NCBI RefSeq assembly: GCF_003385955.1
Contig: NZ_QRDW01000002.1
Location: forward strand, 496,001 to 560,000
Direction of reading: 5' to 3'
Source: Aestuariispira insulae
Lineage (GTDB): Bacteria; Pseudomonadota; Alphaproteobacteria; UBA8366; Aestuariispiraceae
Length of the DNA: 64,000 nt
The position numbers were made by a program, and so were the translations under genes. Positions within the stretch are counted from its first letter, which is position 1; the number at the start of each line of letters is the position of its first letter. Under the pieces are notes generated by a model that worked only from the letters and a program-made list of their open reading frames with translations, was not told the origin of the DNA and ran no database searches. Shown piece by piece: positions 54,016 to 61,409 of this stretch.

Positions 54016-54352
54016 CGCCTTTCATCAAAGCGATTCGCGTCTGCTGAGGATCGCTGACCGCTAAATGCAGCAATCATACCCTTTTGCTGTTTGCGTCCCC
54101 GCTCTTGGCGGAGGCCGTCGGTGCATGTGAGTCCTTCAATGCAGATATTGTAACTGTCTGTTAAAATGGAATTTATTTGTTTTTCCATACGCATGCGTAT
54201 GTTTTTTCTTGCGTTCTTCAATCCGGTTGCGTAAATAAATCACAGAAAACCATACGCATGCGTATGTTATTATGCTCAACTTGGGCGGCTGACTATGCCA
54301 TCATGGCGGCCCAGACAAATTACGATAAATCGCACCGAGCGGGAGAGTGTTC
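54016..54352. other. 337-bp intergenic region before the propionyl-CoA carboxylase operon
   Basis: The region contains two identical palindromic sites (described separately) and no gene. It is AT-rich from about 54140 to 54280. The promoter of pccB must lie here; no clear -35/-10 or sigma-54 motif stands out. Confidence 0.6.
54185..54268. promoter_or_regulatory. Two identical palindromic operator-like sites before pccB
   Basis: CCATACGCATGCGTATGTT occurs at 54185-54203 and again at 54250-54268. Each contains the perfect 16-bp palindrome CATACGCATGCGTATG (54186-54201 and 54251-54266). The centres are 65 bases apart, about six helical turns, so two dimers could bind the same DNA face. The second copy is 84 bases before the pccB start. 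Exact length, symmetry and repetition make a regulator site very likely. The regulator is not identified and is not the PccR site (TTTGCAAA pair) known in Rhodobacter. Confidence 0.75.
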
Positions 54353-55885
54353 ATGGAAGAAATCATCCGGCAGCTTGAGGAAAAGCGGGATGCCGCGCGC
54401 CTGGGCGGCGGGCAGAAGCGCATCGATGCCCAGCATGCCAAGGGCAAGTTGACGGCGCGTGAGCGGATCGAGTTCCTGCTGGATGAAGACTCTTTTGAAG
54501 AATGGGACATGTTCGTCGAACATGACTGCACCGATTTCGGTATGGAAAACAACAAAGTGCCGGGTGATGGCGTGGTTACCGGCTATGGCACGATCAATGG
54601 CCGGCCGGTATTCGTCTTCTCCCAGGATTTTACCGTTTTTGGCGGTTCGCTCTCGGCGGCTCATGCGCGCAAGATCTGCAAGGTCATGGAACAGGCCATG
54701 AAGGTGGGGGCGCCGGTGATCGGATTGAACGATTCCGGTGGCGCGCGCATCCAGGAAGGCGTGGCCAGCCTTGGCGGTTATGCCGATGTGTTCCAGCTGA
54801 ATGTGCTGGCGTCTGGCGTGGTGCCGCAGATATCCATGATTATGGGGCCTTGTGCCGGCGGCGCTGTTTATTCCCCCTCCATGACCGACTTCATTTTCAT
54901 GGTCAAGGACAGTTCCTACATGTTCGTGACCGGCCCGGAAGTGGTCAAGACGGTCACCAACGAAGATGTCACTCAGGAAGAGCTGGGCGGGGCGATGACC
55001 CATACCTCGCGCTCCGGCGTTGCCGACAAGGCCTTCATGGATGATGTGGAAGCCCTGACCCAGCTGCGCCGCTTCATGGGCTTTGTGCCGTCCAACAACC
55101 GGGAGAAAGCCCCGGTCAAGCCGACCGCCGACCCGGCCAACCGGCCGGAAATGTCGCTTGATACATTGGTGCCGAAAAACCCGAACAAGCCCTATGACAT
55201 GAAGGAACTGATCTTCAAGGTCGTGGATGAGGGTGATTTCTTCGAGACCCAGCCGGAATATGCCGCCAACATCATCACCGGCTTCGGTCGCATCGAAGGC
55301 CATCCTGTCGGCATCGTCGCCAACCAGCCGATGGTCCTGGCGGGATGTCTGGATATCTCCAGCTCCATCAAGGCGGCGCGCTTTGTGCGCTTTTGTGATG
55401 CTTTCAATATTCCGCTGGTGACCTTTGTTGATGTGCCGGGCTTCCTGCCCGGAACGTCCCAGGAATATGGCGGTATTATCAAACATGGCGCGAAGCTGCT
55501 TTATGCTTATGCCGAGGCCACCGTTCCCAAAGTCACCGTGGTGACCCGGAAAGCCTATGGCGGGGCCTATGATGTAATGAGTTCCAAACATTTGCGCGGG
55601 GATGTGAATTATGCCTGGCCCAACGCGGAGATTGCCGTGATGGGCGCGAAGGGGGCTGTAGAGATCATTTTCCGGGCCGACCGGGATGATCCGGAAAAGA
55701 TCCAGGCGCGCACGGACGAATATCAGCAGAAATTTGCCAACCCCTTTGTCGCCAGCGCCAAGGGCTTTGTCGATGACATTATCCGGCCGCATAATACCAG
55801 GCCACGCCTGGCCCGTGCCCTGCGTATGCTGAGGAACAAGAAACTGGACAATCCCTGGAAGAAACATGGGAACATCCCCCTGTGA
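54353..55885 (+). CDS. pccB: Propionyl-CoA carboxylase beta (carboxyltransferase) subunit
   Basis: 510 residues. Both carboxyltransferase halves are present: the first with [43 protein letters not shown] and [18 protein letters not shown], the second with [32 protein letters not shown] and [21 protein letters not shown]. It moves carboxyl from biotin to propionyl-CoA, giving methylmalonyl-CoA. The ATG at 54353 follows GGGAG. A small methyltransferase gene and pccA follow on the same strand, and two palindromes precede it. Confidence 0.95.
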
Positions 55886-56403
55886 CGCCATTGCGCCTGC
55901 ATATTGGCGGCAAAGAGCCGAAAGCGGGCTGGACGATCCTGAACGCGCAGCCGGGCGATCATGTCGATATCGTCGGGGATTGCCGGGATCTTAGCCAGTT
56001 TGCCGATGGCAGTGTGGCGGATATTTATATCAGCCACACCTTGGAGCATTTAAGTTACGCGGGGGAGTTGGTCCCGACCTTGAAAGGGTTTCACCGGGTC
56101 ATGAAACCGGGGGCCAGGTTGTTGATCAGTGTGCCGAATATGGATGTTCTCTGCCGGATGATCACCCATGAAGGAACCGACACCAAGATGCGTTACCAAT
56201 TGATGCGCATGCTGTTCGGCGGCCAGGTGGATGATTGGGACTATCATAAGGTCGGGTTCACGCCGGACCTGCTGGCGGCCTTCCTTGGGGAGGCCGAGTT
56301 TGAAACTGTTGAACAGGTCCCATTTTTTGGCCTGTTCCAGGATGCCAGTGAATTGAAGATCGGCAATGTGCCGATCAGCCTGAATGTGATCGCCTATCGG
56401 TGA
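55882..56403 (+). CDS. Small SAM-dependent methyltransferase-like protein within pcc operon
   Basis: 173 residues. The class I fold is suggested by [16 protein letters not shown]-like start, then [27 protein letters not shown] and [21 protein letters not shown]; these resemble the predicted methyltransferases with a missing or reduced glycine-rich motif I. It starts with GTG overlapping the pccB stop and is followed by pccA 48 bases later, so it is surely co-transcribed. Its substrate and link to propionate metabolism are unknown. Confidence 0.75.
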
Positions 56404-56451
56404 TCATGCGGGTGAATGACGAGATATAGCAACAGGGGCTCAGGGAAAGAT

Positions 56452-58449
56452 ATGTTCAAAAAAATCCTGATCGCGAACCGCGGTGAAATTGCGTGCCGGG
56501 TCATCAAAACCGCCCGCAAAATGGGGATTGCAACCGTTGCCATCTATTCAGAGGCCGATGCGGATGCTTTGCATGTGAAAATGGCCGACGAAGCGGTTTG
56601 CGTGGGCCCGGCGCCCAGCGCCGAAAGTTATCTGGTGATTGATAATATCCTGGCGGCGATCCGCCAAACCGGGGCTGAAGCGGTGCATCCGGGCTATGGA
56701 TTCCTGTCCGAAAACCGGCATTTTGCCGCCGCGCTGAAAAAGGAAGGTGTTGCCTTCATCGGCCCGCCGGAAGGCGCGATCCAGGCCATGGGCGATAAGA
56801 TTGAAAGTAAGAAGATTGCTGAGGCCGCGGGCGTCAACACCGTGCCGGGGCATCTGAAAGCCGTTTCCGACCCGGAAGAGGCAGTGCAGATTTCCAACGA
56901 TATTGGCTATCCGGTGATGCTGAAAGCCTCTGCCGGGGGTGGGGGCAAGGGCATGCGCCTGGCCTGGAATGATGATGAGGCGCGCGAGGGCCTGGTCTCG
57001 GCCATGAATGAGGGGCGTAATTCCTTTGGCGATGATCGTGTTTTCATCGAAAAATTCATCGAGGAGCCGCGCCATATCGAAATCCAGGTAATGGCCGACA
57101 GCCATGGCAATGCCATTTACCTGGGTGAGCGGGAATGCTCGATCCAGCGCCGACACCAGAAAGTGCTGGAAGAAGCGCCAAGCCCGTTCCTGGATGAAGA
57201 AACACGCGCCGCCATGGGCGAACAGGCGGTGCAATTGGCCAAGCAGGTGGATTATTGTTCCGCCGGCACGGTGGAATTCATCGTCGATAAGGACCGCAAT
57301 TTCTATTTCCTGGAAATGAATACCAGGCTCCAGGTGGAGCATCCGGTGACCGAACTGGTGACTGGCCAGGATCTGGTGGAATTGATGATCCGGGTGGCCG
57401 ATGGGGAAAAACTGCCCCTGGCCCAGAAGGATGTCACCCTGACCGGTTGGGCGCTGGAAGCCCGGCTTTATGCCGAGGACCCGGAGCGCGGCTTCCTGCC
57501 CAGCACCGGGCGTCTGGTGGATTATCTGCCGCCGGAAGAAAAGGATAATGAGGTTCGGGTCGATACTGGCGTGGTCGAGGGCGCGGAAATATCCATGTTC
57601 TACGATCCTATGATCGCCAAGCTGATCACCTATGGCGATAGCCGCGAGCAGGCGATCGACAATATGCGCGAAGCGCTGGACCGTTATTATGTGCGCGGGC
57701 TTTCCACCAACCTGGCCTTCCTGGCACAGCTGTGCCGCCATGAGCGGTTCCGCAGCGGGGCCATGACCACCAACTTCATCGCCGAGGAATATCCGGACGG
57801 CCTGACCCCGGAATTGCTGGTGCCGGAAGATCCCAAACTGTTTGCCGCGATCGCCGCTGTCATCCAGTCCCGTGTTGATGAGGAAGACGGCAATATCTCG
57901 GGCCGGATCACCCCGGCGGCCCCGCTTCGGGCGACGGAATATAGCGCCTTCCTGGGCGACCAGGACCGACCGGAGCTGGAACTGGTTGTCAATCGGGTGG
58001 AAGATCGCGACCGGATCGAGGTGGAAGGCCGGGTGATAGAGGTCTCCAGCGGCTGGAAACCGGGTGAGGGACTGTTCCGGGGGCTGGTGGATGACCGCAA
58101 AGTGGTGATGCAGATCGACCGCCATGACAGTGGGGTGATTTTGACCCATGACGGGGCCCGCACCCGGGTGCAGGTGGTGCCGAAACGCCTGGCCCATCTG
58201 GTTCGGCTGATGCCTTACAAGGCCCCGCCGGACATGTCGAAATTCCTGATCTCGCCCATGCCGGGCCTGTTGGTCAAACTATCGGTCGCGGAAGGTGATC
58301 AGGTCAAGGCCGGGGCGGAATTGGCGGTGATTGAGGCGATGAAGATGGAAAATGTCATGCGCGCCAGCCAGGATTGCGTGGTCACCAAGCTTCATGCCAA
58401 TACAGGTGAAAGCCTGGTTGTCGACCAGAAGATCATCGAATTTGAATGA
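56452..58449 (+). CDS. pccA: Propionyl-CoA carboxylase alpha subunit (biotin carboxylase/carrier)
   Basis: 665 residues. Biotin carboxylase: MFKKILIANRGEIACRVIKT, the ATP-grasp loop KASAGGGGKGMRLAW, and catalytic region FLEMNTRLQVEHPVTELVTG. A BT-type linking domain follows and the C-terminal carrier holds the biotinylated Lys631 in VIEAMKMENVMRA. It carboxylates its own biotin with bicarbonate and passes the carboxyl to PccB. The ATG at 56452 gives the exact family N-terminus and has CAGGGAAA before it. No methylmalonyl-CoA mutase gene lies in the window. Confidence 0.95.
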   Translation: MFKKILIANRGEIACRVIKTARKMGIATVAIYSEADADALHVKMADEAVCVGPAPSAESYLVIDNILAAIRQTGAEAVHPGYGFLSENRHFAAALKKEGVAFIGPPEGAIQAMGDKIESKKIAEAAGVNTVPGHLKAVSDPEEAVQISNDIGYPVMLKASAGGGGKGMRLAWNDDEAREGLVSAMNEGRNSFGDDRVFIEKFIEEPRHIEIQVMADSHGNAIYLGERECSIQRRHQKVLEEAPSPFLDEETRAAMGEQAVQLAKQVDYCSAGTVEFIVDKDRNFYFLEMNTRLQVEHPVTELVTGQDLVELMIRVADGEKLPLAQKDVTLTGWALEARLYAEDPERGFLPSTGRLVDYLPPEEKDNEVRVDTGVVEGAEISMFYDPMIAKLITYGDSREQAIDNMREALDRYYVRGLSTNLAFLAQLCRHERFRSGAMTTNFIAEEYPDGLTPELLVPEDPKLFAAIAAVIQSRVDEEDGNISGRITPAAPLRATEYSAFLGDQDRPELELVVNRVEDRDRIEVEGRVIEVSSGWKPGEGLFRGLVDDRKVVMQIDRHDSGVILTHDGARTRVQVVPKRLAHLVRLMPYKAPPDMSKFLISPMPGLLVKLSVAEGDQVKAGAELAVIEAMKMENVMRASQDCVVTKLHANTGESLVVDQKIIEFE

Positions 58450-59011: not shown

Positions 59012-60433
59012 ATGCAGGGCGAAAACAGTTTCAAATATGAGGCGGCAGCCGCGCGCATCCTGGACATGCTTTCCAGTGGCCTGTTGGGCATCGGTATGAA
59101 GGCGCCATCCTTGCGGGAATTTTCCCGGCAATCCGGCATTGCCATGTCGACCGCCATGCAGGCCTATCGCCTGCTGGAGGACCAAGGCGTTCTGGAATGC
59201 CGGCCGAAATCGGGTTTTTATGTGCGTGGCTTGGGCGAGGGCGGACCGGATCTGCCGCGCCCAGCCGGCCCGCCAAAAATCATCGATCTGATCGACAAGT
59301 CTGGCTCAATCCAGAATCTGCTGGTCCATGCATCGGACCAAAAGCTGCTGCCATTGGGTTGTGCCATACCAACCACGGAAATCCTGGCCTCGGAAAAGTT
59401 GGACCGCTGCCTGGCGCGTGCGGCACGGGTCGGCAGCACGGATTTCAATCTCTATACGGTACCCAAGGGCAACCCGGATCTGAGCCAGGAACTGGCGCGG
59501 CGGGCTTTGGAATGGGTCCAGGTGGTCGACCCGGAGGATATGGCCATCACCTGCGGCGCAACCGAGGCAATCTACTTGGCACTGAAATGTGTGACCAAAC
59601 CGGGGGATCTGGTGGCGGTCGAATCGCCGACCTAATTCGGACTTTTGCAAATCATCGAGAATCTGGGTTTGAAAATCCTGGAATTGCCGACGGATGCGGG
59701 AAAAGGCCTGGATCTAACGGCGTTTGAAGCGGCACTTTCCCGGCACCCGGTCAAGGCCTGCCTGTTTGCTTCCTGTTTCAGCAATCCGTTGGGCGCAGCG
59801 CTTTCCGAGGCGGACAAAAGGCGCGTGCTGGCGATCCTGGCGGAAAAGGGTGTTCCCCTGATCGAAGATGATGTTTACGGCGATCTTCATTTCACCGGCA
59901 ATCGGCCAAAGCCCTATATGGCGCTTGGCGGCGAGGCGGATGTGATCTATTGCGCATCCCTATCCAAGACACTGGCCCCCGGCTACCGGATTGGCTGGGT
60001 TGTGAGCCATCGGCATATCCATCAGTTGGTCGAATTGAAGCTGGCCATGACGTTGAGCGGCGTGACCTTGGCGCAAATGGCGGTGGCGGATTATCTAAGT
60101 CGCGGCGGCTATGATCAGCATTTGCGCCGCCTGCGCCGGATCTTTTCGGGCAATATCACGAAAATGAGCCAGGCCATCGCGCATTATTTTCCGGACGGCA
60201 CCCGGATCAGCCGTCCGCAAGGTGGCTTTGTGCTCTGGGTGGAAATGCCGGAGGGTTATCGGGGGCGTGATTTATTTGCAGATGCACTGAAGCGGGGAAT
60301 CTGCATCTCACCAGGTGACGTCTTTTCCGCTGCTGACAGGTTCGAAAATTGCATCAGGATCAGCTGCGGCCATCGCTGGGGCGATCATATCGCCGGTGCT
60401 GTAAAAGCACTCGGGGGCCTCATTCAACGGTGA
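59012..60433 (+). pseudogene. MocR-type PLP-dependent regulator interrupted by in-frame TAA
   Basis: One reading frame of 473 codons encodes a complete MocR protein apart from TAA at 59633-59635 (codon 208). Before it: a GntR helix-turn-helix (SLREFSRQSGIAMSTAMQAY, LLEDQGVLECRPKSGFYV) and the first part of the aminotransferase-like domain. The stop falls in the family motif ESPT-stop-FGLLQIIE, where Tyr (TAT or TAC) is expected. After it: LIEDDVYGDLHF, the PLP-lysine motif SLSKTLAPGYRIGW and the C-terminal small domain. As written, a DNA-binding N-terminal piece could still be made, but no PLP sensing. MocR/GabR proteins regulate amino-acid or cofactor genes. Either a genuine mutation or a base-call error is possible. 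Confidence 0.85.
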
Positions 60434-60904: not shown

Positions 60905-61369
60905 TCATTCAATGATTCTTGAGAGCCGCTTTTGCAGCTCGCGGATATTGTCGTTGGTGACATCCAGGCTGCGCAGGTCCATGCCGGTGGCCAGGACATC
61001 GGCCATGTCGCGGATCTGCTCGGTTGTGCGGCGCACATGATTATGGCCTTTAGCGGTGAGATCCAGCAGCTGAGAACGCTTGTGCCGGGGGTTGTTGATG
61101 AACTGCGCCAATCCTTGTGCCACCAGATCATCGGCGATCTTTTGCATGCGCTGGCGGGCCACGGGGCGGCGCTTGGCCAATTGCGGTACGGTTTGCGGTC
61201 CTTCGATCTGGATGGTGCGCATCAGGGACCAGGTGCCGCTGCCCCAGCCGGCTTCTTCGCTCACCTGTTTCCCCGCGGCGCGAAGCTTGAAGAAAGTCGC
61301 CATCAGATTGCTGATCAGATCAAACATGGCATCCCCTTCCGGGGGGTGGCGGCGGCTAAACTCAGTCAT
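60905..61369 (-). CDS. MarR-family transcriptional regulator
   Basis: 154 residues from the ATG at 61369 (ATG at 61384, or 61327 with a better GGAAGGGG ribosome-binding site, are alternatives). The winged helix-turn-helix reads PQTVPQLAKRRPVARQRMQKIADDLVAQGLAQFINNPRHKRSQLLDLTAKG, with long N- and C-terminal dimer helices. Ligand unknown. An inverted repeat overlaps its 5' leader. Upstream on the same strand is a GNAT gene ending 79 bases before; the MarR gene may regulate it. Confidence 0.85.
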   Translation of the reverse strand: MTEFSRRHPPEGDAMFDLISNLMATFFKLRAAGKQVSEEAGWGSGTWSLMRTIQIEGPQTVPQLAKRRPVARQRMQKIADDLVAQGLAQFINNPRHKRSQLLDLTAKGHNHVRRTTEQIRDMADVLATGMDLRSLDVTNDNIRELQKRLSRIIE

Positions 61370-61393
61370 ATGGACAGCACCCATTACTTTTTT

Positions 61394-61409
61394 ATTGTGA
61401 GATGACAAT
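61394..61409. promoter_or_regulatory. Inverted repeat at MarR gene 5' end
   Basis: ATTGT-GAGATG-ACAAT is a 16-bp inverted repeat with perfect five-base arms lying 24 bases before the ATG at 61369, a typical MarR autoregulatory position and size. Confidence 0.5.

Follow-up and report, generated by a model that had tools for sequence, protein, structure and literature searches.

A pair of palindromic operators before pccB in Aestuariispira insulae and a newly proposed TetR regulator of the propionyl-CoA node

The promoter of pccB in Aestuariispira insulae carries two identical perfect palindromes, which raises the question of which regulator they serve. In Cereibacter/Rhodobacter sphaeroides, PccR, a protein of the ScfR family, governs pccB expression and propionyl-CoA assimilation (PMC12632250, PMC10370305). 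The window analysed here is a stretch of 64,000 nucleotides, G000:C2:496001-560000, where G000 is this genome (4.82 Mb). A PccR-like pattern, used in place of the published motif, had no match in the window. The original prediction had guessed at a regulator other than PccR.

The palindrome pair upstream of pccB

Direct reading bore out that two identical copies of a 19-bp unit, CCATACGCATGCGTATGTT, lie in front of pccB and that each encloses the same perfect 16-bp palindrome, CATACGCATGCGTATG, with an offset of 65 bp. The features of the locus are:

54186..54201, no strand: operator 1, perfect palindrome inside the 19-bp unit 54185-54203
54251..54266, no strand: operator 2, same palindrome inside the 19-bp unit 54250-54268, 65 bp from operator 1
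54353..55885, plus strand: pccB, propionyl-CoA carboxylase carboxyltransferase subunit (Carboxyl_trans PF01039, E 1.3e-203)
55882..56403, plus strand: open reading frame between pccB and pccA, from the frame listing, overlapping pccB by 4 bases
56416..58449, plus strand: pccA, biotin-carrying propionyl-CoA carboxylase subunit (PCC_BT PF18140 and Biotin_lipoyl PF00364 above cut-off)

The operators begin 167 and 102 bases ahead of the pccB start codon, with gaps of 151 and 86 bases to the ATG at 54353, which was our choice of start (an alternative GTG lies at 54347). Within the window the pair is confined to this promoter, as had been claimed: at up to three mismatches these two are the only matches, and dinucleotide shuffles expect 0.22.

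pccB is the first gene of the operon downstream of the operator pair. The frame that follows is one we take to be methyltransferase-like, and pccA has the Pfam content of a biotin carboxylase with a PCC_BT domain. In the related genome G005 the gap between pccB and pccA is 21 bases long and contains no methyltransferase-like frame (locus L150). Downstream of pccA are a presumably MocR-like (GntR/aminotransferase) frame at 59012-60433 and a frame at 60905-61408 that we take to be MarR-like. An in-frame stop codon (TAA, 59633-59635) cuts the MocR-like frame short and points to a pseudogene or a sequence error.

Sites across the genome and their putative target genes

A genome-wide search for the palindrome gave five exact copies of the 16-mer against 0.001 expected. 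The form with a free centre, CATACGN4CGTATG, has eight exact copies, where 0.26 are expected from the base composition of 147 kb and 0.08 from a first-order Markov model. Six of them lie outside the window (Poisson P = 3.6e-7), and this count is the fair one because the motif was chosen for the two window copies. A reversed-arm control had no exact copy of its 17-bp form in this genome. With up to one mismatch the genome contains 10 sites (eight exact, two inexact) versus six for the control, and with up to two mismatches 65 versus 77, which is no enrichment. The inexact sites are no commoner than the control and are therefore credible only through their position: one overlaps the start codon of a tetR gene, and the other (C1:750976) is located inside an unrelated reading frame. 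All eight exact sites are intergenic by our gene calls, and those outside the pccB promoter precede genes of one pathway; exact copies away from promoters, many of which the original prediction had named as the sign of a repeat element, did not turn up. The palindromes are an operator and not a repeat.

Two of the eight exact sites belong to the pccB promoter. Two further ones, 65 bp apart as at pccB, precede a propionate-CoA-ligase-like gene, whose best match is propionate--CoA ligase (758.7 bits, under the cut-off of 955) and which passes the cut-off of the acetate--CoA ligase subfamily (671 versus 657 bits). An exact site is also found upstream of the gene for methylmalonyl-CoA mutase (1274 bits, cut-off 876) and of a valine-degradation operon, which encodes an acyl-CoA dehydrogenase, a 3-hydroxyisobutyryl-CoA hydrolase and a 3-hydroxyisobutyrate dehydrogenase, the latter two both above their cut-offs. 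This operon is divergent from an O-acetylhomoserine sulfhydrylase-type gene. The tetR promoter carries one exact site besides the one-mismatch site at the start codon.

The site before bioB (414 bits, cut-off 225) is the exact 16-mer and begins 148 bases ahead of the gene; the frames that follow bioB are, by our own naming, bioF-, bioD- and bioA-like. Among 29 genomes searched, one of the 13 bioB promoters has the site, that of this genome, so any tie between biotin and the regulon comes from a single genome. An exact BioR-like box was found in none of these 13 promoters. A bioB match at E below 1e-60 is absent from 16 of the 29 genomes, G005 among them. Only three of the 14 genomes of the family have such a match (G000, G001 and G003), which hints that the others are biotin auxotrophs.

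The idea that the two sites before pccB are spaced in whole helical turns did not hold up. Their offset corresponds to 65/10.5 = 6.19 turns, and phasing at 10.5 bp over six promoter classes is not significant (Rayleigh P 0.20). The pair spacings in the pooled promoters (65, 65, 66, 62, 62, 42, 42, 44, 44, 45, 44, 47 and 22 bp) cluster near whole turns, a tendency that loses significance when related promoters are merged; a Rayleigh P of 0.008 is reached only with 13 promoters counted separately, related ones included. Promoter hexamers between the paired sites of seven promoters had a summed score of 46 versus 47.4 for shuffles (P 0.78), and a -35 box directly after site 1, seen in an alignment by eye, was dropped since this score is no better than that of shuffles. 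The ligase-gene promoter of this genome taken alone scored 9/12 (P 0.046).

A candidate TetR regulator and its occurrence in other genomes

The best candidate for a protein that would bind the palindromes is the product of the tetR gene:

G000:C3:329841-330434, minus strand: tetR, 197 aa (TetR_N PF00440 49.7 bits, cut-off 24)

The sites in its own promoter are at L020:6433 and 6475. Beside tetR we assign, from sequence, a divergent FadD-like ligase frame and Liv-type transporter frames, and these neighbours do not point to propionate. Pfam at E 0.001 gives TetR_N only, and the ScfR domain PF09856 is not among its matches. Altogether, 25 proteins of this genome match TetR_N; the helix VTKGSFYWHFKD is present in the candidate and in none of the other 24. 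A structure model was used of the orthologue from Curvivirga (L028, 69% identical, N-terminus cut), which consists of helices only (pLDDT 90.3); NCBI assigns Curvivirga aplysinae to the Aestuariispiraceae (Rhodospirillales). Foldseek matched it to solved TetR proteins, FadR and KstR included, with TM-scores of 0.50-0.78 among the 50 matches listed; the model adds little because these scores are moderate and spread over many TetR proteins.

A homologue search with one genome per species returned 565 relatives, of which the best 80 were kept; by their record titles these come from Alpha-, Beta- and Gammaproteobacteria and Cyanobacteria. In windows that open 350 bases ahead of the extrapolated start and close 40 bases past it, exact sites are present upstream of 17 of these best 80 of 565, sites with up to one mismatch upstream of 63 and with up to two upstream of 76. 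The reversed-arm control gave 0, 5 and 8 in the same 80 windows, and for 1278 windows placed at random in these loci the counts were 3, 13 and 13. The 80 homologues are not independent of one another, being phylogenetically redundant with many Rhodocyclales among them.

Eight of 39 close genomes, a set that includes this genome, encode an orthologue (E below 1e-50). The exact motif CCATACGN4CGTATG is present in seven of these eight genomes versus one of the 31 without an orthologue (Fisher P 4e-6); that one, G031, has its exact site inside a reading frame and was scored as a site without TetR. The eighth orthologue-bearing genome, G002, has two one-mismatch sites ahead of its tetR. Among 289 genomes of the class, the TetR profile is matched at E ≤ 1e-30 in 42 and the exact site is found in 23: both in 19, TetR only in 23 and the site only in four (P 1e-14), so that 19 of the 42 genomes with the profile carry the site versus four of the 247 without. 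Here at most 11 candidates were scored per genome, and 'site only' means absence from the list of 42.

The target promoters were compared with those of two other genera, represented by G001 and G005. Of the six in this genome, five are kept in G001 and three in G005. Counted by gene, pccB, the valine operon and tetR retain the site in all three genera, the mutase and ligase genes in two of three, and bioB in one of three. In G001 two exact sites, 66 bp apart, precede pccB, which was recognised by its first codons because an antisense frame had been called there, and further exact sites lie before the ligase gene, the mutase gene, a valine acyl-CoA dehydrogenase gene, mmsA (methylmalonate-semialdehyde dehydrogenase, 675.5 bits, cut-off 448.5) and tetR. 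The gene of an SDR-family dehydrogenase in G001 also has two exact sites, 22 bp apart, one of them where another frame ends; about 1 kb further on is an acetoacetyl-CoA ligase gene. In G005, pccBA is preceded by one exact and one mismatched site (62 bp apart), the valine operon by two exact sites (47 bp apart), mmsA (methylmalonate-semialdehyde dehydrogenase) by an exact site and tetR by two one-mismatch sites.

The semialdehyde dehydrogenase gene thus has a site in two of the three genera and lacks it in this genome: unlike in G001 and G005, no site within three mismatches was found in 4.5 kb around mmsA. A second semialdehyde dehydrogenase is encoded at G000:C2:49479-50975 (L208; 62% identical to the product of G001 mmsA), and 4.5 kb around it gave no site within two mismatches.

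Pooling 27 sites gave the consensus acCATACGCATGCGTATGgt, in which the CATACG arms are near-invariant and the centre is loose. The consensus leaves out several sites with one mismatch, namely C1:750976 in this genome (within a frame), 459527 and 2646906 in G001 (the latter inside the valine acyl-CoA dehydrogenase frame) and those on C69, C113 and C140 in G005. Four further genomes (G009, G010, G011 and G013) have a single exact 17-bp site, at tetR/FadD, and the propionate regulon therefore looks, from these comparisons, like a lineage-specific expansion. Outside these genomes, sites of this class stand before different genes, for example those of acyl-CoA dehydrogenases, and because of this the motif marks the TetR clade and not a pathway. 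At loci L247-L255 (G235 and G320, both alphaproteobacterial) it stands before frames that we take to be UbiD-like, TauD-like and xanthine-dehydrogenase-like. In G235 the site lies near a TetR of the candidate's clade, so that the operator class is shared and the genes are different ones. At two Rhodocyclales loci (L045 and L036), TetR homologues are divergent from acyl-CoA dehydrogenase frames and from frames we presume to be electron-transfer-flavoprotein-like; these homologues are possibly relatives of FadP or LiuQ.

Proposed regulation, alternatives and known systems

Our main reading, to which we give a probability of about 0.8, is that the palindromes are operators of an autoregulated TetR protein, the putative hub of a scattered propionyl-CoA regulon, which would act as a repressor and be released by a CoA thioester. 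The sites and their positions, the identities of the genes, their conservation and the association of motif and TetR are established from sequence; from these we infer binding, the direction of control, the inducer and the cooperation of paired sites. A TetR dimer would occupy each CATACGN4CGTATG site, and at the paired sites of pccB and the ligase-like gene two dimers would probably act together. When substrate is absent, TetR would repress pccBA, the ligase gene, the gene for methylmalonyl-CoA mutase, the valine operon and its own gene. A CoA thioester of the pathway would then free TetR from the DNA; most likely this is propionyl-CoA or methylmalonyl-CoA, since the target pathways converge there. 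By this reading the breakdown of propionate and that of valine seem to be under the joint control of the protein, and in this one bacterium perhaps biotin (vitamin B7) production as well.

An activating role of TetR, in place of repression, is unlikely. The distance from site to start codon varies, with 167 and 102 bases for the two pccB sites and 148 for the bioB site, and hexamer scoring identified no promoter elements between the sites, both of which would suit an activator, but the start codon of tetR is overlapped by a site, as suits repression, and TetR proteins are mostly repressors. We regard it as improbable, too, that a different protein binds the sites, be it of the ScfR/PccR type, the MocR- or MarR-like product encoded near pccA or another TetR, with the candidate merely sharing the motif. 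Two ScfR-domain proteins are encoded in the genome, but both genes are away from pcc, on C1 and C5, and the 10 kb region of each contains no site within two mismatches. By our labels, one of them is divergent from an isocitrate lyase frame and the other is next to a transporter substrate-binding frame. Both the MocR-like (59012-60433) and the MarR-like (60905-61408) frames lie close to pccA, but the former is broken by the TAA at 59633. Against any of these proteins stands the co-occurrence of motif and TetR across genomes, and no second TetR here shares the helix VTKGSFYWHFKD.

An element acting in the RNA, namely a hairpin with a T run behind it that serves as intrinsic terminator or attenuator, could account for the TTTTTT directly after site 1 and for three terminator-like matches at the two palindromes, where 0.4 are expected. 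The stem of the palindrome has only six pairs, however, and no T run follows the copies at the mutase gene, the valine operon, bioB or tetR, which makes such an element very unlikely. Five identical 16-bp copies within one genome might also suggest a dispersed palindromic, REP-like repeat, but this explanation is the least credible: only eight exact N4 copies exist, all intergenic by gene calls and in front of one pathway's genes, their central four bases vary while the arms are constant, and the same genes carry sites in two other genera.

The operator pair is real and very probably belongs to a TetR regulon, whose regulator is newly proposed and of a known kind. The guess that a protein other than PccR acts here is supported, since the likely regulator is a TetR and not of the PccR/ScfR type. 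It would have control of pccB and propionyl-CoA in common with PccR, which belongs to the ScfR family, whereas the candidate is a TetR_N (PF00440) protein. LiuQ and FadP, predicted by comparative genomics to control the breakdown of fatty acids and branched-chain amino acids, are like the candidate TetR proteins of acyl-CoA catabolism, but are reported as unique to Betaproteobacteria (PMC5343134). LiuR of Rhodospirillum rubrum, proposed to regulate Ile/Leu/Val degradation via an 'ILV box' (PMC7238569), shares the control of valine degradation but is of the MerR family and uses another box. With AcuR, the TetR regulator of acrylate utilisation, the candidate would share three-carbon acyl metabolism and shows similarity in the HTH region (residues 13-86); the score against NCBIfam NF051457 is 38.4 bits, far below the cut-off of 247 for membership. 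A literature search that largely excluded subscription papers found neither the motif strings nor a TetR regulator of pcc, mutase, biotin or valine genes, and no regulator of such kind is named among the titles listed by a broader query.

Biotin synthesis operons are regulated by BioR and BirA, with BioR described for Rhizobiales and Rhodobacterales (PMC5343134). Control of a biotin operon would be common to them and the candidate, but BioR is of the GntR family and BirA of the BirA family. A tentative and rather doubtful proposal goes further: a single TetR repressor, freed from the DNA by propionyl-CoA or a related thioester, would here take the place of PccR-type regulation of propionate use as well as of BioR/BirA-type regulation of biotin, with carboxylase demand driving cofactor synthesis. 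Should the bioB site be functional, the making of the cofactor would be coupled to substrate supply, and biotin would be produced at times of need for the biotin-dependent propionyl-CoA carboxylase.

For this family of Rhodospirillales, the analysis offers a concrete candidate regulator, together with its presumed operator, for the propionyl-CoA node, from propionate activation and valine breakdown to carboxylation and the mutase, and the TetR regulon would be an alternative to PccR. Judged by the best 80 of 565 homologues, the TetR clade has an operator that is nearly unchanged across Alpha-, Beta- and Gammaproteobacteria and Cyanobacteria, while the target genes differ.
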